A stretch of DNA of 13,665 nt, from assembly GCA_003647375.1 (NCBI GenBank), contig QMMS01000097.1, forward strand, positions 1-13,665, in the 5' to 3' direction. The number at the start of each line of letters is the position of its first letter. Position 1 is the first letter of the stretch. This stretch comes from Deltaproteobacteria bacterium (GTDB taxonomy: Bacteria > Desulfobacterota > Desulfobacteria > Desulfobacterales > B30-G6). Below the pieces are notes generated by a model that searched no databases, was not told where the DNA came from, and was given only the letters and a program-made list of their open reading frames with translations. This document shows, piece after piece, positions 2,352 through 13,665 of the stretch. A program made the translations under genes and the position numbers.

Positions 2352-4112
2352 ATGAAGGAAAAGAAGAAAAGTCTGGTCGACGTGATCATGGTGAACATGT
2401 TGTTAATGATCAGTCTTCCTTTGGTCCTCCTGGGTGGTATCGTTGTTTTGGGCGAGTATTATTTTTTCCGTCAGGACCGCGAGGTGATTAAAAAAGCCTA
2501 TATCCAGGAGCAGGAAGAGATTTTCAAGCACGAGGTGGAGAAGGCCATCGACTATATTCGGTGGACGCGCAAACAGCATCGGACTCCCGGCGATGACCAG
2601 GAGTCGGAGATGCTAAGCTGGATATCCAGGATTCGGTTTCATAACAAGGGCCGGTTACCTGGATTCCTGTTCGTGCGAACACACGAAGGTATCCAGCTGA
2701 TGAGCTTCAGTCGTCCCGATCTCATCGGCAAGGATATTTCTCTCCTGACAGACCTCGACGGCATTAATTCACACCAGCTCTTTTTGAAAGCCATCGAGAA
2801 ACCCGGGGGTGGGTGGGCCGATTATTCGTGGTTCAATCCCAGCACACGGGAAGTGGAGCTGAAACGGTCTTTTGCCAAAAGTGTACCCGAGTTGGGATGG
2901 TATGTTGGCGCAGGTTTCTGGTTTGGCGATATCGAAAGGGTCATATTCAACAAGCAGTTGATTTTCAGAAACAAGGTCATGAAGGAGGTTTCGACCATTT
3001 CATTGCTCCTTTCCGCCATGTTTCTTCTCCAGTACCTGGTATACCGGGTGATGATGCGCAAAATCCGGGGCAACTTCCATCAATTTGTCGAGTTTTTCAA
3101 TACATCGACCTCCACTGCTGTTCTAGTGGATGCAAAGGCTCTCAGTTATTCAGAGTTCGTCAACATGGCCAAGTCCGTCAACCAGATGATAAAGGCTCGG
3201 AATGTAGCCGATCAGGCACTGCGTGACAGTGAGAACCGCTACCGGTCAATTATCGAAAACATCGATCAAGGGTATTGTGAGGTAGGCTCGGATGGGAATA
3301 TCACTTTTTTCAACGACCGCATGCACGACATTGCAGGGTATTCGAGGGAAGAATTGACCGGTATGAACGCAGCGGTTATGCTGGATGAGAAGGATGTCGA
3401 AAAGGTATTCAAACATTTTGCAGATATCTATGAAACCGACGTGCCGCAACCGGAATTAACCTGTTTGATTAGACGAAAGGATGACACCTGGAAATTTGTG
3501 GGCCTTACGCCTACAGTCATCAAGGACGCCCAGGGAAACAAAACAGGGTTGCGCAGTATTGTCAGAGATGTGGATCGGCAGAAAGAATACGAAGAGAACC
3601 TGATCTATCTGGCATACCATGATGCACTGACGGGATTGAAAAACAGGAAGGCGTTTTATGAGCAGTTAAGCGACGCTCTTTATCACGCCAAACGGTATGG
3701 TACTGAACTGGGTTTGATCTATGTCGATATCGACAAATTTAAAAAAGTCAACGACACTCTGGGGCATGAGATGGGTGATGTGCTTTTACTGGAGATCAGG
3801 GACCGGTTGCAGAACACGCTGCGTAAAACCGATTTTATATCACGAATCGGTGGCGATGAATTTGTTGTCTTGGTGGACAACCCGAATAATTTTCATCCGG
3901 CAGCCATTGCAGAAAAGATTGTCAAGAATCTCTCCGAGCCATATAATCTCAAAGGGAATATGGTCGATTACATCTCCTCGAGTGTCGGAATCAGTGTTTT
4001 TCCCACCGATGCTGTAGAAATGGACAGCTTGGTCAGGAAGGCGGATCAGGCTATGTACGTGGCCAAGGAAAAGCGGAATGGTTATGTCAGATATGCGGAT
4101 GTGAACCTATGA
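2352..4112 (+). CDS. Membrane sCache-PAS-GGDEF diguanylate cyclase
   Basis: Predicted inner-membrane sensor making cyclic di-GMP from two GTP. The order is: transmembrane helix about 11-33; periplasmic single-Cache-like domain about 45-205, ending in the typical ELGWYVGAGFW strand; second helix about 213-235; HAMP-like linker with helical character about 245-290; PAS domain about 293-410; GGDEF domain about 415-580. The active-site loop GGDEF (500-504) is intact, and RKTD (491-494), five residues before it, is the product-inhibition I-site. No EAL or HD-GYP domain is present, so synthesis rather than hydrolysis is expected. The ligand of the Cache domain cannot be read from sequence; small organic acids and amino acids are common for this fold. 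ATG 2352 has only a weak ribosome site. It is divergent from argF across 217 bases and appears monocistronic. Confidence 0.92.
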   Translation: MKEKKKSLVDVIMVNMLLMISLPLVLLGGIVVLGEYYFFRQDREVIKKAYIQEQEEIFKHEVEKAIDYIRWTRKQHRTPGDDQESEMLSWISRIRFHNKGRLPGFLFVRTHEGIQLMSFSRPDLIGKDISLLTDLDGINSHQLFLKAIEKPGGGWADYSWFNPSTREVELKRSFAKSVPELGWYVGAGFWFGDIERVIFNKQLIFRNKVMKEVSTISLLLSAMFLLQYLVYRVMMRKIRGNFHQFVEFFNTSTSTAVLVDAKALSYSEFVNMAKSVNQMIKARNVADQALRDSENRYRSIIENIDQGYCEVGSDGNITFFNDRMHDIAGYSREELTGMNAAVMLDEKDVEKVFKHFADIYETDVPQPELTCLIRRKDDTWKFVGLTPTVIKDAQGNKTGLRSIVRDVDRQKEYEENLIYLAYHDALTGLKNRKAFYEQLSDALYHAKRYGTELGLIYVDIDKFKKVNDTLGHEMGDVLLLEIRDRLQNTLRKTDFISRIGGDEFVVLVDNPNNFHPAAIAEKIVKNLSEPYNLKGNMVDYISSSVGISVFPTDAVEMDSLVRKADQAMYVAKEKRNGYVRYADVNL

Positions 4113-4193
4113 CGCTCGGGGAAAACACTCCATTTGTAACAGATAACTATGGGGTCCAGCTAACTTGCCGGCCCGGATGTAACGATAATTTGT

Positions 4194-4222
4194 TTGACAA
4201 TTATCATTAATCAGACTAAATA
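4194..4222 (+). promoter_or_regulatory. Sigma-70-like promoter (TTGACA, 17 bp, TAAATA)
   Basis: A perfect -35 TTGACA (4194-4199) is followed, after 17 bases, by TAAATA (4217-4222), which matches 3 of 6 bases of TATAAT. The -35 is embedded in an inverted repeat GATAATT / AATTATC (4184-4190 and 4199-4205) that could be an operator. Transcription would start near 4229 and run into the hairpin and terminator at 4253-4340. Confidence 0.5.
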
Positions 4223-4228
4223 CTACAG

Positions 4229-4340
4229 CGAATGTACTAAAACCAATCAGAACCCGCTATACAACGGTGTATAGTCGGGAGTTATATGAAATAGACAAAG
4301 GCGTCTGGTCCTGTGACTACACAGGTCGGCGCCTTTTTTT
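4229..4340 (+). ncRNA. Candidate small RNA or attenuated leader before the glutamate-synthase-like gene
   Basis: Between the predicted start near 4229 and the T tract at 4334-4340 lies a compact unit of about 112 bases. It holds a hairpin at 4253-4279 (stem CCCG plus CTATAC paired with GTATAG plus CGGG, one bulged T, hexaloop AACGGT) and a terminator at 4297-4340. No coding frame of useful length is inside; only an ATG-AAA-TAG trinucleotide set follows a GGGAG at 4277-4281. This may be an independent small RNA or the terminated leader of the gene at 4477. The hexaloop has A at position 1 and G at position 4, as in ANTAR-protein target hairpins. I do not recognise a known riboswitch class. Confidence 0.45.
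4297..4340 (+). terminator. Strong intrinsic terminator inside the leader of the glutamate-synthase-like gene
   Basis: AAAGGCGTC (4297-4305) pairs with GGCGCCTTT (4328-4336; one T-G pair, the rest Watson-Crick). After a small internal loop, CCTGTG (4310-4315) pairs with CACAGG (4320-4325) around an ACTA loop. Seven T (4334-4340) follow the stem. It lies 185 bases after the cyclase stop and 137 bases before the next start codon. It therefore either ends cyclase read-through, ends a small RNA, or attenuates the gene at 4477. Confidence 0.85.
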
Positions 4341-4344
4341 GTTC

Positions 4345-4384
4345 TCAGGAGAGCCCCTGACCTAAGTTGAGCTCAGCTTAGGTC
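4345..4384 (+). promoter_or_regulatory. Second hexaloop hairpin overlapping a 26 bp near-perfect palindrome
   Basis: TCAGG (4345-4349) and CCTGA (4356-4360) close a loop of six, AGAGCC. Sharing bases 4359-4360 with it is a palindrome at 4359-4384: arms GACCTAAG and CTTAGGTC, core TGAGCTCA, with one mismatched symmetric pair only. The two structures cannot form fully at once in RNA. As DNA, the palindrome could be a repressor or activator operator about 93 bases before the start codon at 4477. No T tract follows it. Confidence 0.55.
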
Positions 4385-4476: not shown

Positions 4477-6129
4477 ATGAGATTTGTGAAATCGAACGAT
4501 GTATTGGGAACGACTAACAGAGGGAACCCGACGGAATCAGGGTTATGTACCTTGTGCAGGGCTGACTGCCAGGGCAAGTGTGAAGTATGGCTATCGAGTC
4601 TTGTGGGCAGGAAACTCCTCTATCCCCGCAGTTATGGCATCGTGACGGCCGGGGCCAACAATACGACTCATGTGGGTGTCTCCTATAATTCTCTCCGTAT
4701 TCAGGGGTATGCGTATGGGTCTCATGGCCTGAACAGTCGACTGACCAGTGATCCTGATGATTGCATCTTTCCCAACGTGAAACTCGAAACGGAATTTGGC
4801 AACGAGATCAAGACCAAGGCGCGCATACCGCTCATGACCGGAGCCCTTGGCTCCACCTTTGTGGCGGCAAAGTACTGGGAATCTTTTGCAGTTGGCGCGG
4901 CACTGGCCGGGATACCTGTTGTAATCGGGGAGAACGTTGTGGGTGTCGACCTGGAATCGGAAATTGATCCTTCACCGGAAAGAAAAGGCAAAATCAAAAA
5001 GGCACCGGAACTGGAACGGCGTATTGACAGCTACTTCAGGTATTATGATGGGTATGGTGGACTTTTTGTCCAGCTGAACGTGGAGGATACCCGTAATGGG
5101 GTGGCGGAATTTGTCGCCGATAAATATGGAGACAAGTGTATCATCGAGTTGAAATGGGGACAGGGGGCCAAGGATATCGGTGGTGAGATTCAGGTTACGA
5201 GTCTTGAATATGCCAAGTTTCTGCAGGACAGAGGCTATGTCGTGGATCCGGATCCCTCACTTCCGGAGGTCCAGCGGGCCTTTGAAACTCGCTCCGTCAA
5301 ATCGTTTGCCAGACACAGCCGGTTGGGGGGCACGGATCTTTCTACTGTGGAGCAGGTCCGCGAAGACTTCATGAGTTCGGTTGTTTATCTTCGAAGCCTT
5401 GGTTTTAATCGGATATCCCTCAAAACCGGTTCCTACGGCATGGAAGAACTGGCCATGGCCATCAAGTTTGCAACCGATGCCAAGCTGGATCTTCTGACCA
5501 TCGACGGATCCGGCGGCGGTACCGGCATGAGTCCCTGGAACATGATGCAAAGCTGGGGTGTTCCTTCCATAAACCTGCATTCCAAAGCCTATGAATACGC
5601 CAATATACTGGCGGCCAAGGGCCACCGGGTGGTGGACATGTCGTTTGCCGGCGGGTTTGCCCAGGAAGATAGTATTTTCAAAGGTCTCGCATTGGGGGCA
5701 CCATTCACCAAATTGATCTGCATGGGGCGGGCGCTCATGATACCGGGATTTGTAGGAGCAAACATCGAAGGTGCCCTGTTCCCTGAGAAAAGAGGGGATC
5801 TCAATGGCCACTGGGCAGAACTTCCCAAGAGCGTTCTGCGGGTGGGAAATGCAGCTACGGAAATTTTTTCATGCTACCATGATGTTGCAAAGAAACTCGG
5901 AAAAGATGAAATGGCTCATATCCCCTATGGTGCCATTGCCATGGTTAGCATGGTGGATAAACTTTATGGCGGGCTGCAGCAGCTATTGGCCGGTGCCCGC
6001 AAGTTCGACGTCAGGAATATTTCCCGAGGAGAGATTTTTTCAGGGAACCGGGAGACTGCCAAAGAAACCGGTATCGCCCATATGTGCGATGCCAATGATG
6101 AAAGTGCAAAGAAGATATTGAACGCCTAA
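4477..6129 (+). CDS. Glutamate-synthase-like FMN/Fe-S protein (GltB central domain type)
   Basis: Belongs to the FMN-binding glutamate synthase family, in which the catalytic barrel passes electrons to 2-oxoglutarate plus ammonia to form glutamate. At 550 residues it lacks the N-terminal glutamine amidotransferase domain and C-terminal beta-helix of full GltB. Cysteines C24, C27, C31 and C35 (CxxC-x3-C-x3-C) form a probable Fe-S site at the amino end. The barrel follows with IELKWGQGAKDIGGEI (about 223-238) and the phosphate-loop-like TIDGSGGGTGMSP (341-353), matching the FMN and substrate loops of the family. AAGGAG at 4465-4470 lies six bases before ATG 4477. No gltD or amidotransferase partner is next to it, so the ammonia and electron donors must come from elsewhere, or the true reaction differs. 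The 5' leader carries a terminator and hairpins. Family is sure, reaction inferred. Confidence 0.88.
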   Translation: MRFVKSNDVLGTTNRGNPTESGLCTLCRADCQGKCEVWLSSLVGRKLLYPRSYGIVTAGANNTTHVGVSYNSLRIQGYAYGSHGLNSRLTSDPDDCIFPNVKLETEFGNEIKTKARIPLMTGALGSTFVAAKYWESFAVGAALAGIPVVIGENVVGVDLESEIDPSPERKGKIKKAPELERRIDSYFRYYDGYGGLFVQLNVEDTRNGVAEFVADKYGDKCIIELKWGQGAKDIGGEIQVTSLEYAKFLQDRGYVVDPDPSLPEVQRAFETRSVKSFARHSRLGGTDLSTVEQVREDFMSSVVYLRSLGFNRISLKTGSYGMEELAMAIKFATDAKLDLLTIDGSGGGTGMSPWNMMQSWGVPSINLHSKAYEYANILAAKGHRVVDMSFAGGFAQEDSIFKGLALGAPFTKLICMGRALMIPGFVGANIEGALFPEKRGDLNGHWAELPKSVLRVGNAATEIFSCYHDVAKKLGKDEMAHIPYGAIAMVSMVDKLYGGLQQLLAGARKFDVRNISRGEIFSGNRETAKETGIAHMCDANDESAKKILNA

Positions 6130-6242: not shown

Positions 6243-9200
6243 TTATATGCGCCACTGTTTCGGGGAAAGGCCCAGTTTTTTCATCCGAGTGTAAAGAGAC
6301 GTTCGTTTCATACCTAACAACTCGGCAGCTCCTTTTGACCCGCCCATTTTACCTCCGGTTTTATCCAGCGTGTACTGGATATACCGACGCTGCAATTCAT
6401 CAAGAGTGACATCATCGGAAAATATATCATCAAAGGTGAATTTTGGTTTGCATTGAGATAAGAACTCCCAGTGCTCGGAGGAGCCTAACAAGGCGGTTCG
6501 TTCCATCACGTTTTTTAATTCCCGAACATTACCCGGCCAGGCATAAGTGCTGAGCTTGGCGTTATCGTCAGTGGTTAACTCGATCCGACGGGTCATGTTT
6601 TTTTTACAATAATACTTGAGAAAATACTCTGCAAGCATGACGATATCTTCAACTCGATCCCGCAAAGGAGGCAACTTCAATGGCATGACATTTATGCGGT
6701 AGTAAAGATCATTGCGGAATTTGCCGTTGTCTACCTCCCAGGCCAGGTCACGATTGGTCGCAACCAATAAACGAAAATCTACGCTAATTTGAGCCTTTCC
6801 CCCAATTCTTGGAAATTTTTGATCATCCAGCACACGAAGGAATTTAACCTGAAGTGCTTGGGGAATCTCGCCTATTTCATCAATAAAAAGGGTCCCTTGG
6901 TGTGCCGCCTCCATGCGGCCGATTTTTTGATGATTTGCGCCGGTGAAAGCCCCTTTCTCATAGCCAAACAGTTCACTTTCCAAAAGGTTTTCCGGAATTG
7001 TTGACGGATCTATTGTAACAAAGGGGCCCTCACGACGACGACTCATTTCGTGGATCCTTTTTGCTAAAAGTTCTTTACCAACCCCGGTCTCTCCCTGAAT
7101 ATACACGGTAGCTTCTGATGTGGCAATCCGGTCTGCCTGTTTTAAAAGCTTTCGCATAACCGGGCTTGTGAACTTGATATCTTGTCCGATCTGCTCCGAC
7201 TTATTGTCTAAATCTTTCACCCGCCCTTTTTCTTTCTGTCTCAGCGATTGGAAATAGTGTCTCTGCCAGGATAGGTGCTTTGATATTTCTGTCATAATGC
7301 TTTCCAGCACCGGCCCGCTCAAGAAATCAAAGCAGTGAGGGAAATAGATATTATCACAATAGAGTACGCCGGTGCCTAAGTCCTCTACTTTTATCGGGAG
7401 GCAGAGGAGGGCATGGTGGGTTCGGAAAATAATTGGCTTACCCTCACGAAAGGATTTTAAAATCAACTTCATCTTGGAGTGAAAGCTCTCTCCGGAAAGT
7501 TCATTTTTGCTCAGATTGAGAGATGCTCTCAATTCGAGGCGTGTGGATTTTCCTTCAGCAGACCAAAAGAGAGCGCTGCGTTCGGCCCCAAGAAACCGGT
7601 TCATTGTTGATACCAATAAATGCATGGCATATTTCAGGCTTGGCCGGACGAGTAATTGTTTAGCCATTTCATAAAAAAGACCTGTGAGTATAGACAGGTG
7701 GTCTACATCCTCCATGTCGGCCTGGTGATCATCCAATAAAAACCTGAGTCCATCCGGAAAGAATCTATCCAAGGAGCCGGACAACCCCTGCCGGGCTTTT
7801 TGCGCAAAAACAAGGGCTTCTTTTTGATTGCCCTGATTGAGCTTCAGGGTGGCAAGTGCTATCCTTGTCTTTGCTACTTGAAACGGGTCACCTGTGGAGT
7901 TGAGTAATGTTTCACTGGCCAGGAGATCTTTCTCAATTACCTCCCTGTCTGTCCCTTCGTGCAACCGCTTCTCGGCATTAAGCCTTATGGCCAGACCGCG
8001 GAGATGTGCATTGGGAGTATGCATGATTACATCCAGGAGATTTTCGAATTCATATCCGGGAATTGGCGGGTAACCGAGCTTTTCCAATTCAAAAAGCATC
8101 TCAAGAGTCCAAGGGGACCAGAACCGTCCCAGCATTCCATGCTTTATCGCTTTTGGCTGGAGCTGTGTCAGCATATCATGGCTTTCATTGGGGCGGTTTT
8201 CAATGAGGTGGTAATGCGCAAGCCCGCCAACGGCAAAATATTCCCCCAGAAAGTTACGGTCAGACAATGCTTCCTTCTGGGCCATCTGGAGATGAAAAGA
8301 GCCGTTCTCCCTATTTCCGCTCACCACCAACACAGTGCCCAGAATCGCCCTGATGATGGGTGAGACAGGGTTGTGACCTTTTGTGAGGCGCCAATTGAAG
8401 TCGAGTAAACCGATGGATCGGTGAAATTGGCCCAGGTAGGCCGAAGTCAATCCCATATATATGACACTGGAAGGATCCGCCAAAGCGTTTACCTTTTGCG
8501 ATCCAAGACGAATCAAAGCAAGTTCGAAATACTCCATAGCTTTCCCGAAATTGCCTTGCATATGGTAGTAAAGGGCAAGAAATTGGCTTGCCTGCTCAAG
8601 AATATCATCGTCGCCCAGGTTTTTTACAGCCATCTCCCCTAAGGCAAAAAATTCCAATGCCTTCGAAAGGTTGTTGGAAAAAAAGAAGACTCGGCCCATA
8701 TGCAGTTCAAGGAGCGCCGTAGAACGTTTGTCACCTAAACGATTCGATATTACTTTTGCCTTTTTCAATATTTGTGGGATTTCATTGAGATATTTTCCCA
8801 AAGAAACCGCGAGGTTGGATAATTCCAAGGCTGCGGAAATAAACAAAGAATCGTTTCCACGACTTCTAAGATTAGAACCCAGTTGGATAAGAGCCCGGCG
8901 GGAATATCTAAGGGCTTCAATATGGGAATGATTCTCCAACGCTGCCTGAGCAAGACTGCTGTTAATTTGAGCGGCTTCTTGGGCTCTATCACATTCAGCT
9001 AAAAGGGTTGCGTGTGTTCCCGAGGGTATCTGGTCAATGCAATTCAAATCATCGAGCTTATCCAGTATCATGGATACCCACGCAGAAGTGCGAATTTTTT
9101 CAAATTTTCGGACCAGGCTTGCGGGCAAATCAGGCGGTAAACCAAGTTCTTTGTTCCCATTTCGTTCTTTAGGATTTAGTTCCGGGAAGCGGTCAATCAG

Positions 9201-9332
9201 GTCCAGCAATTCGCCGGAATCGAGTGGGGGCAATGCTTTTGCCGTTTTAATGGTAATCGTTTTCCCCAGAGCGTGTATCCCTGCTAAAAATTCCAATTGC
9301 GCTGCAGATAATTCAGGCATCTTTTGTTCCAT
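6243..9332 (-). CDS. Sigma-54 enhancer-binding activator with TPR and GAF sensor regions
   Basis: A 1029-residue transcription activator that should bind upstream DNA and use ATP hydrolysis to open sigma-54 promoters. In numbering from GTG 9338 (add 2): a helical amino-terminal part to about 110; a long helical TPR-like array about 115-540; a GAF-like domain about 560-695; the AAA+ domain about 719-950 with Walker A GETGVGKE (749-756), the sigma-54 contact loop GAFTGA (796-801), Walker B GTLFIDE (815-821) and WPGNVREL (934-941); and a Fis-type helix-turn-helix about 1003-1023 (GAAELLGMKRTSLYTRMKKL). All catalytic loops are intact. There is no phospho-acceptor receiver domain, so control is probably by ligand or protein contact through TPR/GAF. 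ATG 9332 is preferred over GTG 9338, which has a GAG only three bases away. It is divergent from the operon at 9837, whose -24/-12 promoter is its obvious target. Confidence 0.93.
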   Translation of the reverse strand: MEQKMPELSAAQLEFLAGIHALGKTITIKTAKALPPLDSGELLDLIDRFPELNPKERNGNKELGLPPDLPASLVRKFEKIRTSAWVSMILDKLDDLNCIDQIPSGTHATLLAECDRAQEAAQINSSLAQAALENHSHIEALRYSRRALIQLGSNLRSRGNDSLFISAALELSNLAVSLGKYLNEIPQILKKAKVISNRLGDKRSTALLELHMGRVFFFSNNLSKALEFFALGEMAVKNLGDDDILEQASQFLALYYHMQGNFGKAMEYFELALIRLGSQKVNALADPSSVIYMGLTSAYLGQFHRSIGLLDFNWRLTKGHNPVSPIIRAILGTVLVVSGNRENGSFHLQMAQKEALSDRNFLGEYFAVGGLAHYHLIENRPNESHDMLTQLQPKAIKHGMLGRFWSPWTLEMLFELEKLGYPPIPGYEFENLLDVIMHTPNAHLRGLAIRLNAEKRLHEGTDREVIEKDLLASETLLNSTGDPFQVAKTRIALATLKLNQGNQKEALVFAQKARQGLSGSLDRFFPDGLRFLLDDHQADMEDVDHLSILTGLFYEMAKQLLVRPSLKYAMHLLVSTMNRFLGAERSALFWSAEGKSTRLELRASLNLSKNELSGESFHSKMKLILKSFREGKPIIFRTHHALLCLPIKVEDLGTGVLYCDNIYFPHCFDFLSGPVLESIMTEISKHLSWQRHYFQSLRQKEKGRVKDLDNKSEQIGQDIKFTSPVMRKLLKQADRIATSEATVYIQGETGVGKELLAKRIHEMSRRREGPFVTIDPSTIPENLLESELFGYEKGAFTGANHQKIGRMEAAHQGTLFIDEIGEIPQALQVKFLRVLDDQKFPRIGGKAQISVDFRLLVATNRDLAWEVDNGKFRNDLYYRINVMPLKLPPLRDRVEDIVMLAEYFLKYYCKKNMTRRIELTTDDNAKLSTYAWPGNVRELKNVMERTALLGSSEHWEFLSQCKPKFTFDDIFSDDVTLDELQRRYIQYTLDKTGGKMGGSKGAAELLGMKRTSLYTRMKKLGLSPKQWRI

Positions 9333-9364
9333 GGCCACTATCTCAAATTTCCATTTTGGTTTTA

Positions 9365-9620: not shown

Positions 9621-9646
9621 GACTCCACAGTGACTCTATGGAGTCA
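9621..9646. promoter_or_regulatory. Candidate upstream activator site for the sigma-54 regulator
   Basis: GACTCCA (9621-9627) and TGGAGTC (9639-9645) are a perfect seven-base inverted repeat with an 11-base spacer. Overlapping it, TGACTC-TATG-GAGTCA (9631-9646) is a second perfect dyad, giving three GACTC-type half sites. The centre lies about 105-110 bases before the predicted sigma-54 start site, the usual distance for enhancer-binding proteins. Assignment to the neighbouring regulator is inference from position and symmetry. Confidence 0.5.
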
Positions 9647-9718: not shown

Positions 9719-9734
9719 TGGCATGCGAGTTGCA
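9719..9734 (+). promoter_or_regulatory. Sigma-54 (-24/-12) promoter of the Mo-enzyme operon
   Basis: TGGCATG-CGAG-TTGCA matches the sigma-54 consensus TGGCACG-N4-TTGCA with one difference, and the key GG (9720-9721) and GC (9732-9733) are separated by exactly 10 bases. The start of transcription would be near 9744, leaving a leader of about 93 bases before ATG 9837. The divergently encoded sigma-54 activator beside it strongly supports the call. Confidence 0.85.
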
Positions 9735-9836
9735 AGTTTAATAAAAAATTGGATTTTTGTAGATCTTGAGTCGTTGAGGATAGGTGAGATGATAGGGCGC
9801 AAGTTCTTAACTGTACGCAAGGAGGAATAAGAAATT

Positions 9837-11957
9837 ATGGAAAGTAAGATTAGCCCGGATGGTAAATTTCTGTGTTTGAGGTGCCATCAGAAGTGCCATC
9901 TGACGGGGCAAGTCAGTGATGGTAAATTGGTGGGCATTGAAGGTGCGACCTGTATAAAAGGAAGAACAATTCCCGATCTTGTGTATCATCCCGACAGGGT
10001 GCTTTATCCGCAAAAGCGGGTGGGTGAAAAAGGATCAGGAAAATGGGAGCGTATCTCATGGGAGCAGGCCATAGAAGAAATCGCTGCCAAAATGAATGAG
10101 GTAACAGATAAATACGGTTCTGAAACTATTTATCTCTCAACAGGTTCCGGACAAAAACAGATAGGAAACCAGGCGTGTGAAATTGGAAAGAAATTTTTCG
10201 ATACTCCCCAGACCCATTGGGGACGTTACACCTGTATCATCCCTCAGGCTACCGCTGATTTTGGGACAGCCGGTGAAACCCTCGCCTATGAATACTGTGC
10301 TGAGTACAGCAAATCAAAACTGATAATGCTCTGGGGCGCTAACGTGGATTTAACCTGCCCGGCTCAGGCACGTGATATCAGGGAAGCGGTTCGTGGCGGT
10401 ACCAAGCTGATTGTTGTCGATCCCAGGGCGATACCCATGGCGAAGAAAGCCAATCTATGGCTGAAAATCAAGCCTGGAACAGATACGGCTTTAGGGTTAG
10501 GGATGATCAATGTGATTATCAATGAAGAGCTTTATGATAAAGATTTTGTAAAAAACTGGACAGTGGGTTTTGAGAGATTAAAGGCACATGTTCAGGAATT
10601 CACACCTGCGTGGGCTGCTCCAATTACGGATCTGTCCGAGGCAGATATTATTGCAGCAGCCAGGCTTTATGCAAAAACGCCTCCAGCCACCCTGTATGCA
10701 CGAACCGGTGCTGCTGCCCAGCAGATAAATTCGTCCCAGAATGCCCGGACCATGGCCTGCCTGATCGGCCTATGCGGCAATGTTGATGTCCCGGGTGGAA
10801 ATATACCGTATTTGAGGACCTTTAATGCCAAGTATTTTTACCATTCATATACTACCCGTATGAGTCTGAGAGCCTCGCCCAATAAAGAAAACAAGTTTTT
10901 TGGTTTTGGGAAATATCCAATGATGCACATGATCAGTATGTGTGACATGCCCACCTGTATAAGGGGTATGCATGACGGGCGCACCAGGGCGGCCTGGATT
11001 GTTGCAAATAATTTGGTTGTATCCGACCAGGATAGCCGGATGGTTTTTGAGGGTTTGAAGAAGCTCAAGCTTGTGGTTGTTTCCGATTATTTTATGACGC
11101 CTACAGCCGAGGTTGCTGACTATGTCCTTCCCGCTTGCTCGTATGCGGAGATAGACAATATTGTTGGCACCTTTCAAGAGCCTTATGATTATGCAATTGC
11201 ACACAGAAAAATAATAGAGCCCCAAGGCGAGTGCTGGGATGACAGGAAAATGGTCATCGAGGTCGGTAAAAAGATGGGTCGCGGTGAAGTTTTCTGGAAA
11301 GATGTTGAAGACTGGCTTGATTGGCGGCTGAAATACCTGGGAAAGACATTTGATGAAATGTGTAATATGCCGGATCACAAAATAGACTTTCCGCGGAGCT
11401 ATAGGAGATATGAAAAAAGTGTCCCCGGCTTTGGAACCCCTAGTGGAAAATTTGAATTTTATTCTGAGATCCTTGACGTCATCGGAACCGAACCTCTCCC
11501 GACCTTCCGGGAAAATCCTGAGAGTCCGGTAAGCAGTCCTGAGATTTTCAAGGAATACCCCTTTATTTATATGCAGGTCAGGCTGGCAGGCTTTCAGCAC
11601 ACTGAAGGAAGGCAGATAGAGAGACAACGAAAAATGCACCCCGATCCTATTCTGGAGATGCATCCGGATCCGGCGGGCAAACTGGGAATCAGTGACGGCG
11701 ATTGGGTTAAGCTTCAAATAGCAGAGCAAAAGTATAAAGACAAACACATATCGTTCAGGGTCAAACTGGTTGATACGATGCACCCGGAGACAGTTGGAGC
11801 AGCCCATGGGTGGTGGTTCCCTGAGAAACCGGCTCCAGAGCACGGCGCCTTTGATTCAAATATAAATGCCCTGTTGTCTATGGAGCATGGACCTTACGAG
11901 CCGCTTGTGGGGAATATTCAGCAAAGAGCCATTGCCTGCAAAGTGACGAAGGCTTGA
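9837..11957 (+). CDS. Molybdopterin oxidoreductase, acetylene-hydratase-like branch
   Basis: A DMSO-reductase-family enzyme of 706 residues that should bind a bis-pterin molybdenum or tungsten centre and one [4Fe-4S] cluster. The cluster ligands are C13, C16, C20 and C39 (CLRCHQKC, then GATCIKGR). RVLYPQKRVG and WERISWEQA follow, as usual. C133 in GRYTCIIPQ sits where this family places the metal ligand, so a Cys-ligated metal is likely. LGMINVIINEELYDKDFV (220-237) and YFMTPTAEVADYVLPA (418-433) resemble Pelobacter acetylene hydratase, compared from memory. The Asp that follows the second cluster Cys there and activates water is His17 here, so acetylene hydration is doubtful. No Tat signal or redox partner subunit is seen; it looks cytoplasmic. 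AAGGAGG (9819-9825) precedes ATG 9837. First gene of a sigma-54 operon with SCP2 and acyl-CoA dehydrogenase genes. Substrate unknown. Confidence 0.88.
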   Translation: MESKISPDGKFLCLRCHQKCHLTGQVSDGKLVGIEGATCIKGRTIPDLVYHPDRVLYPQKRVGEKGSGKWERISWEQAIEEIAAKMNEVTDKYGSETIYLSTGSGQKQIGNQACEIGKKFFDTPQTHWGRYTCIIPQATADFGTAGETLAYEYCAEYSKSKLIMLWGANVDLTCPAQARDIREAVRGGTKLIVVDPRAIPMAKKANLWLKIKPGTDTALGLGMINVIINEELYDKDFVKNWTVGFERLKAHVQEFTPAWAAPITDLSEADIIAAARLYAKTPPATLYARTGAAAQQINSSQNARTMACLIGLCGNVDVPGGNIPYLRTFNAKYFYHSYTTRMSLRASPNKENKFFGFGKYPMMHMISMCDMPTCIRGMHDGRTRAAWIVANNLVVSDQDSRMVFEGLKKLKLVVVSDYFMTPTAEVADYVLPACSYAEIDNIVGTFQEPYDYAIAHRKIIEPQGECWDDRKMVIEVGKKMGRGEVFWKDVEDWLDWRLKYLGKTFDEMCNMPDHKIDFPRSYRRYEKSVPGFGTPSGKFEFYSEILDVIGTEPLPTFRENPESPVSSPEIFKEYPFIYMQVRLAGFQHTEGRQIERQRKMHPDPILEMHPDPAGKLGISDGDWVKLQIAEQKYKDKHISFRVKLVDTMHPETVGAAHGWWFPEKPAPEHGAFDSNINALLSMEHGPYEPLVGNIQQRAIACKVTKA

Positions 11958-11994
11958 TTTTCTTGATGTTGAAGTGTGAAAGGAGAAAACAAAA

Positions 11995-12564
11995 ATGCCA
12001 GAAGATTTGATCGATAGAATTATCAATTTGGAACCGAAAGATGTCGAAGCCAAATTGCCCGCCCTTCTGGGTGAGATAGAAAACAATGGTGTTGAAGAAT
12101 CGATGAATGAATATCCCGGCGTATTGCTCCAGATATTCCTGAAGCTTGAAGAAAGCGATTTGGTAAGGATAGGGGTTGATTCCCCGGAACTATTTGACAG
12201 GCTCACCAAAATTGTATGGGAGGGTGTGTCAAAAAGATCGGAGGGTGTTGCATCCTACCTCGATGAGGTTGTCAGGGACTTGCCCAGGAAAAAATTTGTT
12301 GTCAATTTTGAGACGTTTGACACACCCTTAAAGCTGCATTTTGTGGTATCTGACGGGAAGTTTTCCGGTGATGTGGGTATGACTAGCTTCAGAGAGCAGG
12401 ATTGCAGGTGGTTTGCGGATACACAGACGATTCTCGCATTAATGAGGGGAGAGTTTCGACAAACAATGCTTTTTACTGAAAAGCTTTTTTTTGAGGGGGC
12501 ATTTGGATTGCTGGGAAAAAAGGCAGTGCCACTGTGCGCCCTGCTGGGAAGCTTATTAATGTAA
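11995..12564 (+). CDS. SCP2-like sterol/lipid carrier domain protein
   Basis: A small 189-residue soluble protein without signal peptide or membrane helix. Residues 1-95 are helical, acidic and of no family I recognise. Residues about 98-188 fit the SCP2 fold: beta strands (KKFVVNFETFD, LKLHFVVSDGKFSG), then a helix and sheet in ADTQTILALMRGEF (141-154), and the final amphipathic, hydrophobic tail (GLLGKKAVPLCALLGSLL). SCP2 domains hold fatty acyl-CoA, sterols or other hydrophobic molecules in a tunnel. AAAGGAG at 11979-11985 precedes ATG 11995. It starts 37 bases after the Mo enzyme and ends 22 before the dehydrogenase, so all three are almost certainly one transcript. It could carry a poorly soluble substrate or its CoA ester between the two enzymes. 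The SCP2 assignment rests on pattern, not a search. Confidence 0.65.
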   Translation: MPEDLIDRIINLEPKDVEAKLPALLGEIENNGVEESMNEYPGVLLQIFLKLEESDLVRIGVDSPELFDRLTKIVWEGVSKRSEGVASYLDEVVRDLPRKKFVVNFETFDTPLKLHFVVSDGKFSGDVGMTSFREQDCRWFADTQTILALMRGEFRQTMLFTEKLFFEGAFGLLGKKAVPLCALLGSLLM

Positions 12565-12586
12565 TTTAAGAGAAGGAGAGTACAAC

Positions 12587-13665
12587 ATGGAATTAGATTT
12601 ACTTAAGGAAAAATACCTGGGTATTCCCGAGGGATCACTGATGCAGGCTGCCGTGCTCCGTGACGTTATGGAGGAGAAGGTATGGCCCCGGCGGCTGGAT
12701 TTGGAAGGAGGCTTTCACAGGGATGCAGAACTGGGAAGAAAGACAAAGGATGAACTTCACCAGGAATTAGTAGATTTAAGCCAGGTCAGGGGGCTTTTCC
12801 CACCGGAAATTGATGGCGTGGGCATGCCCTGGATTATGGAGTTTCTCTATCCGAGCATAGAGGAATTATCCCGCGGTGACTGTGGCCTGTTAATGGATAC
12901 ATTGGTGCCCGGATGGGCTTTTCTTGCCGCCACAAAGGCATCTAACATGGATGTATTGAAGGACTATGGGGCTATTTTCACAGGGCCTGACATGCACCAT
13001 GCATGCCTGTCGATGACCGAACCCCAGGGCGGCTGCAATATCCTTGATGAAAGTATGAAAGGTAAGACAATAAGAACGACTGCCATACTTGACGGGGACG
13101 ATTATGTAATCAATGGTCTGAAATTATGGCCGAGCGGATCGGGTGAAGCTGAGTATTTTATGACCGTCTGCACGACCGATCCCAGCCTGGGAGATGAAGG
13201 GATCTGCCTGCTTTATCATCCGCGTGATGTAGAAGGCCTTTCTACGGGTCCCAATATCCATAAAATGGGGATGATTTTTACAGATTTTAATGGATGGATC
13301 AAATATGAAAACGTAAGGGTACCAAAGAAATACCGGGCTGCAGGTCCGGGGAGAGATGCTGAACTCTGGCGGGATGCCCTTGCTGCAGCAAGGTTTCTCA
13401 GTGCCCCGATGGCTCTTGGTGCTGCCCAGGCAGGTTTTGAAATTGCGTTGGAATACACAAGAACAAGAATTGCCGGGAACAAACCGGTCAGGGAGCACTC
13501 AATGCATGCCGGCATGCTTGCAGACATGGCCATCGCCATTGAAGCCTCCAGAGCCTATAATATACAGGTGGCAAGGATGTTTGACAGGCCTGAGCAATTT
13601 GGACCCTGGCATGGATCTTATTTGTCCGGAAAAGCCAGCGGTGCAAAGGTGATGTCTTCTGATAC
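12587..13665 (+). CDS. Acyl-CoA dehydrogenase (3' end beyond the window)
   Basis: A flavin (FAD) dehydrogenase oxidising an acyl-CoA at C2-C3 and passing electrons to ETF. The 359 residues present cover the amino-terminal helices, the beta domain and the start of the carboxy-terminal helices. CLSMTEPQGGCN (140-151) is the FAD/substrate loop, a variant of the usual TEPxAGSD. INGLKLWPSGSG (175-186) corresponds to the NGxKxWIS segment. YENVRVPKKY (240-249) is the dV-VP signature before the last domain, and the helices around 262-330 include RTRIAGNKPV. The catalytic glutamate of most members lies farther on and is not in the window, so activity and subfamily cannot be judged. AAGGAG at 12573-12578 gives good spacing to ATG 12587. 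It is the third gene of the sigma-54 operon, 22 bases after the SCP2-like gene. Confidence 0.9.
   Translation, partial: MELDLLKEKYLGIPEGSLMQAAVLRDVMEEKVWPRRLDLEGGFHRDAELGRKTKDELHQELVDLSQVRGLFPPEIDGVGMPWIMEFLYPSIEELSRGDCGLLMDTLVPGWAFLAATKASNMDVLKDYGAIFTGPDMHHACLSMTEPQGGCNILDESMKGKTIRTTAILDGDDYVINGLKLWPSGSGEAEYFMTVCTTDPSLGDEGICLLYHPRDVEGLSTGPNIHKMGMIFTDFNGWIKYENVRVPKKYRAAGPGRDAELWRDALAAARFLSAPMALGAAQAGFEIALEYTRTRIAGNKPVREHSMHAGMLADMAIAIEASRAYNIQVARMFDRPEQFGPWHGSYLSGKASGAKVMSSD

Follow-up and report, generated by a model that had tools for sequence, protein, structure and literature searches.

The molybdenum or tungsten (Mo/W) enzyme described here has its nearest relative of solved structure in acetylene hydratase of Pelobacter acetylenicus (2e7z), which is non-redox, yet active only once reduced to W(IV); its Asp13 is specific to the subfamily, and activity was lost in an Ala variant and little changed in a Glu variant (PMC12096430; this and the other papers cited were available in part, and what is said of them refers to the available text). 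Acetylene hydratase-like genes have been reported from sediment Chloroflexi (PMC3971608). Anaerobic hydroxylation of very hydrophobic substrates with water is known from the Mo-containing steroid C25/C26 dehydrogenases of Sterolibacterium (PMC11061730, PMC7411048), and AorABC of Aromatoleum, a purified NAD-linked W aldehyde oxidoreductase with Fe-S and flavin adenine dinucleotide (FAD), passes electrons from W through Fe-S and FAD to NAD+ as acceptor (PMC6365974). As for carrier proteins, the SCP2 protein UbiT belongs to an O2-independent hydroxylation pathway of ubiquinone synthesis (PMC6747719), and putative sterol carrier protein genes of Archaeoglobus were induced along with β-oxidation genes, with no link to a Mo enzyme given in the available text (PMC3949148). 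Going by these texts, none of AorABC, the steroid dehydrogenases and UbiT combines all the parts found in a 13,665-nt contig of a Deltaproteobacteria bacterium (QMMS01000097.1, assembly GCA_003647375.1; the whole stretch is called the window), where genes for a Mo/W enzyme, an SCP2-fold protein and an acyl-CoA dehydrogenase-family protein follow one another:

9837–11957, + strand: gene for a Mo/W enzyme of the bis-molybdopterin guanine dinucleotide (bisMGD) type, a 706-residue open reading frame (ORF)
9873–9953, + strand: its [4Fe-4S] motif, placed by alignments (Cys13, Cys16, (His17), Cys20 ... Cys39)
10233–10235, + strand: codon of Cys133, the expected Mo/W ligand, aligned with Cys141 of acetylene hydratase
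11995–12564, + strand: gene for the SCP2-fold protein (189-residue ORF)
12280–12561, + strand: SCP2 domain, about residues 96–189, its boundary set by eye from the secondary structure of the model and the matched ranges
12587–13663, + strand: acyl-CoA dehydrogenase-family gene (first 359 residues, open at the window end)

Judged from sequence comparison, the conserved unit is the pair formed by the Mo/W enzyme and the SCP2-like protein, with an NAD(P)H/FAD module fused to it or encoded nearby. Profile searches (A1 and A3) detected the SCP2-like family in two further genomes, the Nitrospirae metagenome-assembled genome FK_Sedi_B_Bin.60 (G001, locus L001) and G131 (locus L083), and in both it lies directly 3′ of a Mo gene of the same clade:

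L001: Mo gene, 222–2390; SCP2-like gene, 2442–3038; PadH-like flavoprotein gene, 3104–4384
L083: fused Mo gene, 9991–13554, followed by the SCP2-like gene; SnoaL-like gene (Pfam SnoaL_2), 13663–14088

The nearest match to the L001 flavoprotein is PadH (NADH subunit of phenylglyoxylate dehydrogenase), at 387 bits against an NCBIfam equivalog cut-off of 475. A PadH-like FAD/NADH subunit beside the pair recalls AorC, the FAD subunit of AorABC; AorB, however, is of the AOR family, not the dimethyl sulfoxide (DMSO) reductase family, and the available text mentions no SCP2 protein for AorABC. In L083 the SnoaL-like gene stands directly upstream of the fused Mo gene, and the SCP2-like gene overlaps the latter by 17 bases (start codon taken at 10007). 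The sequence-only reading had taken all three genes as the unit: the adjacency of the first two recurred in both genomes, but searches of these yielded no close dehydrogenase relative (best scores 185 and 166 bits). Among database proteins at 48–70% identity the trio, whole or in part, probably recurs, since the records of SCP2-like protein P0008 and Mo protein P0014 give the same longest contig figure (34162), as do those of SCP2-like protein P0009 and dehydrogenase P0137 (30345). The statement that no characterised pathway contains this trio agrees with the open-licence literature searched, whose available text held no description of a Mo enzyme with an SCP2 partner or of the inserted module discussed below.

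The SCP2-like family is rare in genomes. Profile A1 matched one genome in a set of seven, 1/389 in the class of G004, 1/295 in the phylum of G001 (G001 again) and 0/85 in the class of G002, and profile A3 matched 0/35; at the search sensitivity used, these empty results are not proof of absence. No relatives were present among 59 pattern matches in IMG/VR. In a scan of genome contigs with the Mo enzyme, L001 was the sole locus with an SCP2-like match among 80 loci, among the matches listed; its Mo protein was 50% identical to that of the window, and the rest were 33–39% identical. Searches with Mo profile A2 at 1e-180 matched 13/389 genomes of the class of G004, only G131 exceeding 1000 bits (next 717). 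The same profile matched 5/245 genomes in the class of G772 (best 662 bits), 1/194 in the order of G131 (G131 itself), 0/23 in the class of G006 and, at 1e-200, 4/85 in the class of G002 (best 741 bits). These last four genomes contain five loci, four with a different motif, CQ.CH..C, and one with no motif, and no SCP2 match was present in the short stretch around each.

A set of 123 Mo proteins was compared (the window protein, the 120 database matches listed, and those of L083 and L001), of which 63 are long fused forms of more than 830 residues. In 55 of these the sequence CLRCHQKC stands at the N-terminus and the part matching the window protein from Cys39 on begins at residue 487–545; a module of about 470 residues thus separates the third Cys of the [4Fe-4S] motif from the fourth (Cys20 and Cys39 in the window protein). 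The motif was missing from the available sequence of the other eight. In the two examples tested (the G131 protein and P0059) the module matched Pfam Fer4_20 and Pyr_redox_2, and precomputed Pfam lists of the fused forms contain a pyridine-nucleotide oxidoreductase domain. We take NAD(P)H-FAD-Fe-S proteins of the GltD/NfnB type to be built in the same way, and the presence of the module suggests that the clade carries out redox chemistry linked to NAD(P). Its placement inside a [4Fe-4S] motif is odd for a domain insertion (L083, 9991–13554; proteins of more than 830 residues among P0018–P0095). A quick tree of 87 rows, which carried a long-branch warning, placed the window protein in a clade of 80 (SH-like approximate likelihood ratio test, SH-aLRT, 100), of which 62 are fused and 18 unfused; the supported groups nearest to the window protein are unfused. 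The tree left out P0016, P0089, P0090, P0095, P0099, P0111 and P0123 (fragments or ragged ends) and the matches ranked after P0098, and the 'unfused' rows P0047, P0049 and P0080 may represent truncated or split forms of fused proteins. We know of no tested member of this clade.

The Mo enzyme itself is, by its sequence, an acetylene-hydratase-like member of this 'CLRCHQKC' clade within the DMSO reductase (Mo/W-bisMGD) superfamily: it matches Pfam Molybdopterin PF00384 (3e-45) and PF01568, has the ligand Cys133 and shares the fold in a predicted model, which is weak at residues 1–53, 582–600 and other stretches. Both sequence and fold point to 2e7z as the nearest solved structure, in keeping with the branch to which the enzyme had been assigned from the window alone. 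No export signal was visible by eye, suggesting a cytoplasmic enzyme. Automatic NCBIfam names were set aside, every score among the matches listed (25 of 26 families) being below its cut-off, and an identity as a type II DMSO reductase, the group of the steroid and ethylbenzene dehydrogenases, was rejected (DMSO_red_II_alp, 193 bits against 985; EbdA, 89 against 2000). The steroid C25/C26 dehydrogenases share with the present proposal a Mo enzyme and insoluble substrates without O2, but are type II enzymes of alpha-beta-gamma composition, for which the available text mentions no SCP2 partner (PMC11061730).

At the metal site, the ligand Cys (Cys141 in acetylene hydratase, Cys133 here) and the four-Cys [4Fe-4S] set (13, 16, 20 and 39) are kept. 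Cys133 is invariant in the A2 profile alignment; in an alignment of clade members with other relatives, the position is Cys in 21 of the 22 clade rows (one gap) and in 114/114 others. The 22 rows take in fragments and one short fused protein (P0077). Residues aligned with a Lys and an Arg of acetylene hydratase, which we take to be Lys48 and Arg606, are also kept in the window protein. In contrast, the position of Asp13, a residue in the second shell of the metal, is occupied by His17. All 15 clade rows that are not gapped at this position have His (7 are gapped), as do 103/109 other aligned relatives, the rest being 4 Gln, 1 Tyr and 1 Ser (5 gaps); Asp occurs in none. Nothing on the role of a His at this position was found in the literature. 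The enzyme further differs from acetylene hydratase in its SCP2 partner and in the NAD(P)H/FAD modules of its relatives.

The second protein consists, in the predicted model, of a helical N-terminal part (about residues 1–95) followed by the C-terminal SCP2 domain. By this model the SCP2 fold assignment holds, and the best fold matches are UbiJ-SCP2 structures. The earlier description as SCP2-like stands on the predicted fold but not on sequence: the match to Pfam PF02036 was below threshold (E 0.014; 16.1 bits against a cut-off of 21.3), and only 3/13 members of the family matched it at E up to 1. There was no NCBIfam match from which an automatic name could be taken. UbiT and UbiJ share the fold, and for them a role in holding a lipid while other enzymes modify it has been proposed or shown; their partner hydroxylase, however, is UbiU-UbiV of the U32 family, not a Mo enzyme, and they serve quinone synthesis.

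The third protein was recognised as an acyl-CoA dehydrogenase in the sequence-only reading, which is borne out by Pfam (middle domain PF02770, 7e-13; C-terminal domain PF00441, 1.2e-12) and by the catalytic Glu of close full-length relatives. The Glu region lies beyond the window end; P0131, a full-length relative 96% identical, has Glu397, and all 11 closest full-length relatives (P0131–P0141, 56–96% identical) carry this residue, which aligns with the Glu of short-chain acyl-CoA dehydrogenase. The protein has the middle and C-terminal domains of the family (short-chain, glutaryl-CoA and cyclohexanecarbonyl-CoA dehydrogenases), but reaches no NCBIfam equivalog cut-off (automatic names were rejected, 12/12 scores being below), and the Pfam N-terminal domain is not listed for its seven closest relatives (P0131–P0137). 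More distant relatives, reaching 1e-75, were found in 11/241 genomes of the class of G004, and eight of their neighbourhoods were examined, the relatives there being 31–42% identical to the window protein. A divergent sigma-54 activator faces the relative in three of the eight (L130, L132 and L133), and in L134 an activator lies elsewhere. In L131 (2127–7013) the relative stands between UbiD-type and aldehyde:ferredoxin-oxidoreductase-family (AFOR) genes, in what looks like another anaerobic catabolic cluster. In L128 (2847–11824) it adjoins an HGD-D (2-hydroxyacyl-CoA dehydratase-type) gene, in a stretch with two HGD-D-type genes, a glycyl-radical-enzyme activase and an AAA_5 protein; a fumarate-addition cluster is not claimed, no glycyl-radical enzyme having been recognised in the stretch examined. 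By analogy, these neighbourhoods lean towards a catabolic role.

The three genes are 37 and 22 bases apart, each has a good ribosome site, and a promoter-like site and an activator gene lie upstream:

9819–9825, + strand: ribosome site AAGGAGG of the Mo enzyme gene
11979–11985, + strand: ribosome site AAAGGAG of the SCP2-like gene
12573–12578, + strand: ribosome site AAGGAG of the acyl-CoA dehydrogenase gene
9719–9734, + strand: sigma-54 (-24/-12) promoter-like site TGGCATGCGAGTTGCA, 11/13 consensus positions
6243–9338, − strand: gene for a sigma-54-dependent activator of 1031 residues (from Pfam), divergent from the operon
9621–9645, no strand assigned: inverted repeat GACTCCA-N11-TGGAGTC, found by script

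Scored against what we take to be the sigma-54 consensus, the site at 9719–9734 is the only one in the window with 11/13 positions, and begins 118 bases 5′ of the Mo start codon. By chance, 0.46 such sites are expected per window-sized sequence (one or more in 111/300 simulated windows), and about 0.01 on the operon strand of the 498-base gap (arithmetic estimate); the site lies in this gap, on the correct strand and next to the divergent activator gene. The activator matches Sigma54_activat (the AAA+ domain that interacts with sigma-54, 4.5e-65), AAA_lid_14 and HTH_8 (a Fis-type DNA-binding end), with a weak TPR match in its N-terminal part (TPR_12, 1.5e-7), and is the probable regulator of the operon. 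The inverted repeat is possibly its binding site; it is weak, about 0.3 such repeats being estimated to occur by chance. Both elements of a sigma-54 operon are present, the promoter as a predicted site, and the picture supports a single operon that is probably inducible. On promoter, spacing and inducibility the sequence-only reading fared well. A sigma-54 activator about 30% identical to that of the window (885 aligned positions) is encoded at L083, 2–2641, some 7 kb from the G131 pair. Elsewhere in the window, a 550-residue glutamate-synthase-like protein with an FMN domain (4477–6129) lies tail to tail with the activator gene, possibly a redox partner, possibly a neighbour and no more, and a diguanylate cyclase with sCache and PAS sensor domains is encoded at 2352–4112.

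Comparison with relatives suggests that the pair performs a redox reaction, linked to NAD(P), on a molecule insoluble in water. The SCP2 protein would hold the hydrophobic substrate and present it to the cytoplasmic Mo/W enzyme, which would perform a two-electron reaction, most likely a water-dependent hydroxylation or a dehydrogenation and less likely a reduction, with His17 serving over the metal as the acid/base, the part played by Asp13 in acetylene hydratase. Electrons would pass from the [4Fe-4S] cluster to a flavoprotein and on to NAD(P). In the subclade of the window, the dehydrogenase with its catalytic Glu would oxidise a later, probably CoA-bound, intermediate, and the divergent sigma-54 activator would turn the operon on. 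We give about even chances to the view that this is an inducible operon for the anaerobic breakdown of a water-insoluble compound by Mo/W two-electron redox chemistry coupled to an SCP2 carrier and NAD(P). More tentatively, and as a possibility that we do not favour over its negation, the pair may represent a new class of O2-independent lipid oxidoreductases, in which a cytoplasmic Mo/W enzyme, linked to NAD(P)H via the inserted flavin module or a PadH-like subunit, would hydroxylate or dehydrogenate an isoprenoid, sterol-like molecule or hydrocarbon delivered by the SCP2 carrier, with CoA-ester oxidation added in the lineage of the window.

Several points weigh against such a breakdown route. 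We infer each enzymatic step, and assign neither substrate, product nor direction; ligand binding by the SCP2 protein, too, is read from a predicted structure. The pair is backed by two neighbourhoods only, and the CoA step is not general, as no close dehydrogenase relative was found in either pair-bearing genome. By pattern matching, 66 of the 120 dehydrogenase matches listed have the catalytic Glu and 9 of the 75 readable ones have Leu (45 were unreadable), and two neighbourhoods of dehydrogenase relatives (L127, 3.8 kb, and L129) contain no catabolic partner. The Mo enzyme of the window has no fused module, and no flavoprotein partner is visible within the window; one may lie beyond its end. 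Finally, as acetylene hydratase is non-redox yet needs W(IV), the flavin module might, in principle, do no more than activate the enzyme by reduction.

That last point bears on the hydration favoured in the sequence-only reading, in which the Mo/W enzyme would hydrate an unsaturated hydrophobic substrate whose product becomes a CoA ester and is oxidised. The relationship to acetylene hydratase, the ligand Cys and the aligned Lys and Arg all fit, and the need for reduction makes electron-transfer modules compatible with hydration (PMC12096430). Yet the clade has His at a position where, in acetylene hydratase, the Ala change abolishes activity and Glu has little effect, and a full NAD(P)H/FAD module in 63 of the 123 proteins exceeds what occasional activation would seem to need; we consider hydration very improbable. 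A reductive role would use the same module in the opposite direction, NAD(P)H reducing a hydrophobic compound at an enone, aromatic, carboxylic or nitro/N-oxide group for detoxification or as an electron sink, with the dehydrogenase also running reductively. The module is GltD-like, GltD-type modules usually draw electrons from NADPH, and reductases also occur within the dehydrogenase family, the matches including acryloyl-CoA and caffeyl-CoA reductases. Sigma-54 control in a catabolic style speaks against this direction, as do the genes beside some of the related dehydrogenases and AorC, the FAD subunit that runs towards NAD+ in AorABC (PMC6365974), and we regard it as quite unlikely.

Somewhat less unlikely, though still not expected, is a biosynthetic or lipid-remodelling role, in which the Mo enzyme would modify an isoprenoid quinone, a hopanoid or another membrane lipid without O2 and the SCP2 protein would act like UbiT/UbiJ. 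The UbiJ-SCP2 fold matches agree with it, as do the place of UbiT in an O2-independent hydroxylation pathway (PMC6747719) and the occurrence of the pair in two phyla, with no close dehydrogenase relative found in the two genomes tested. It sits poorly with the sigma-54 control, with the dehydrogenase partner in the window and with the rarity of the SCP2 family (two genomes in the profile searches), and no quinone or lipid biosynthesis gene was recognised beside the pair. Overall, the sequence-only reading was right that the genes look like an inducible system, so far undescribed, that acts on a hydrophobic substrate, and probably wrong in leaning on hydration and on the trio as the conserved unit.

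Anaerobes have to break down inert, insoluble molecules without the help of oxygenases, and the enzymes known to do this are few. The clade described here holds at least 80 database proteins, which are prone to being mis-named as formate dehydrogenase or acetylene hydratase, and the pair offers a compact target for expression and substrate screening. If the proposal is true, the pairing of a Mo/W enzyme with a dedicated lipid carrier would add a new route for bringing insoluble substrates to a metal centre.

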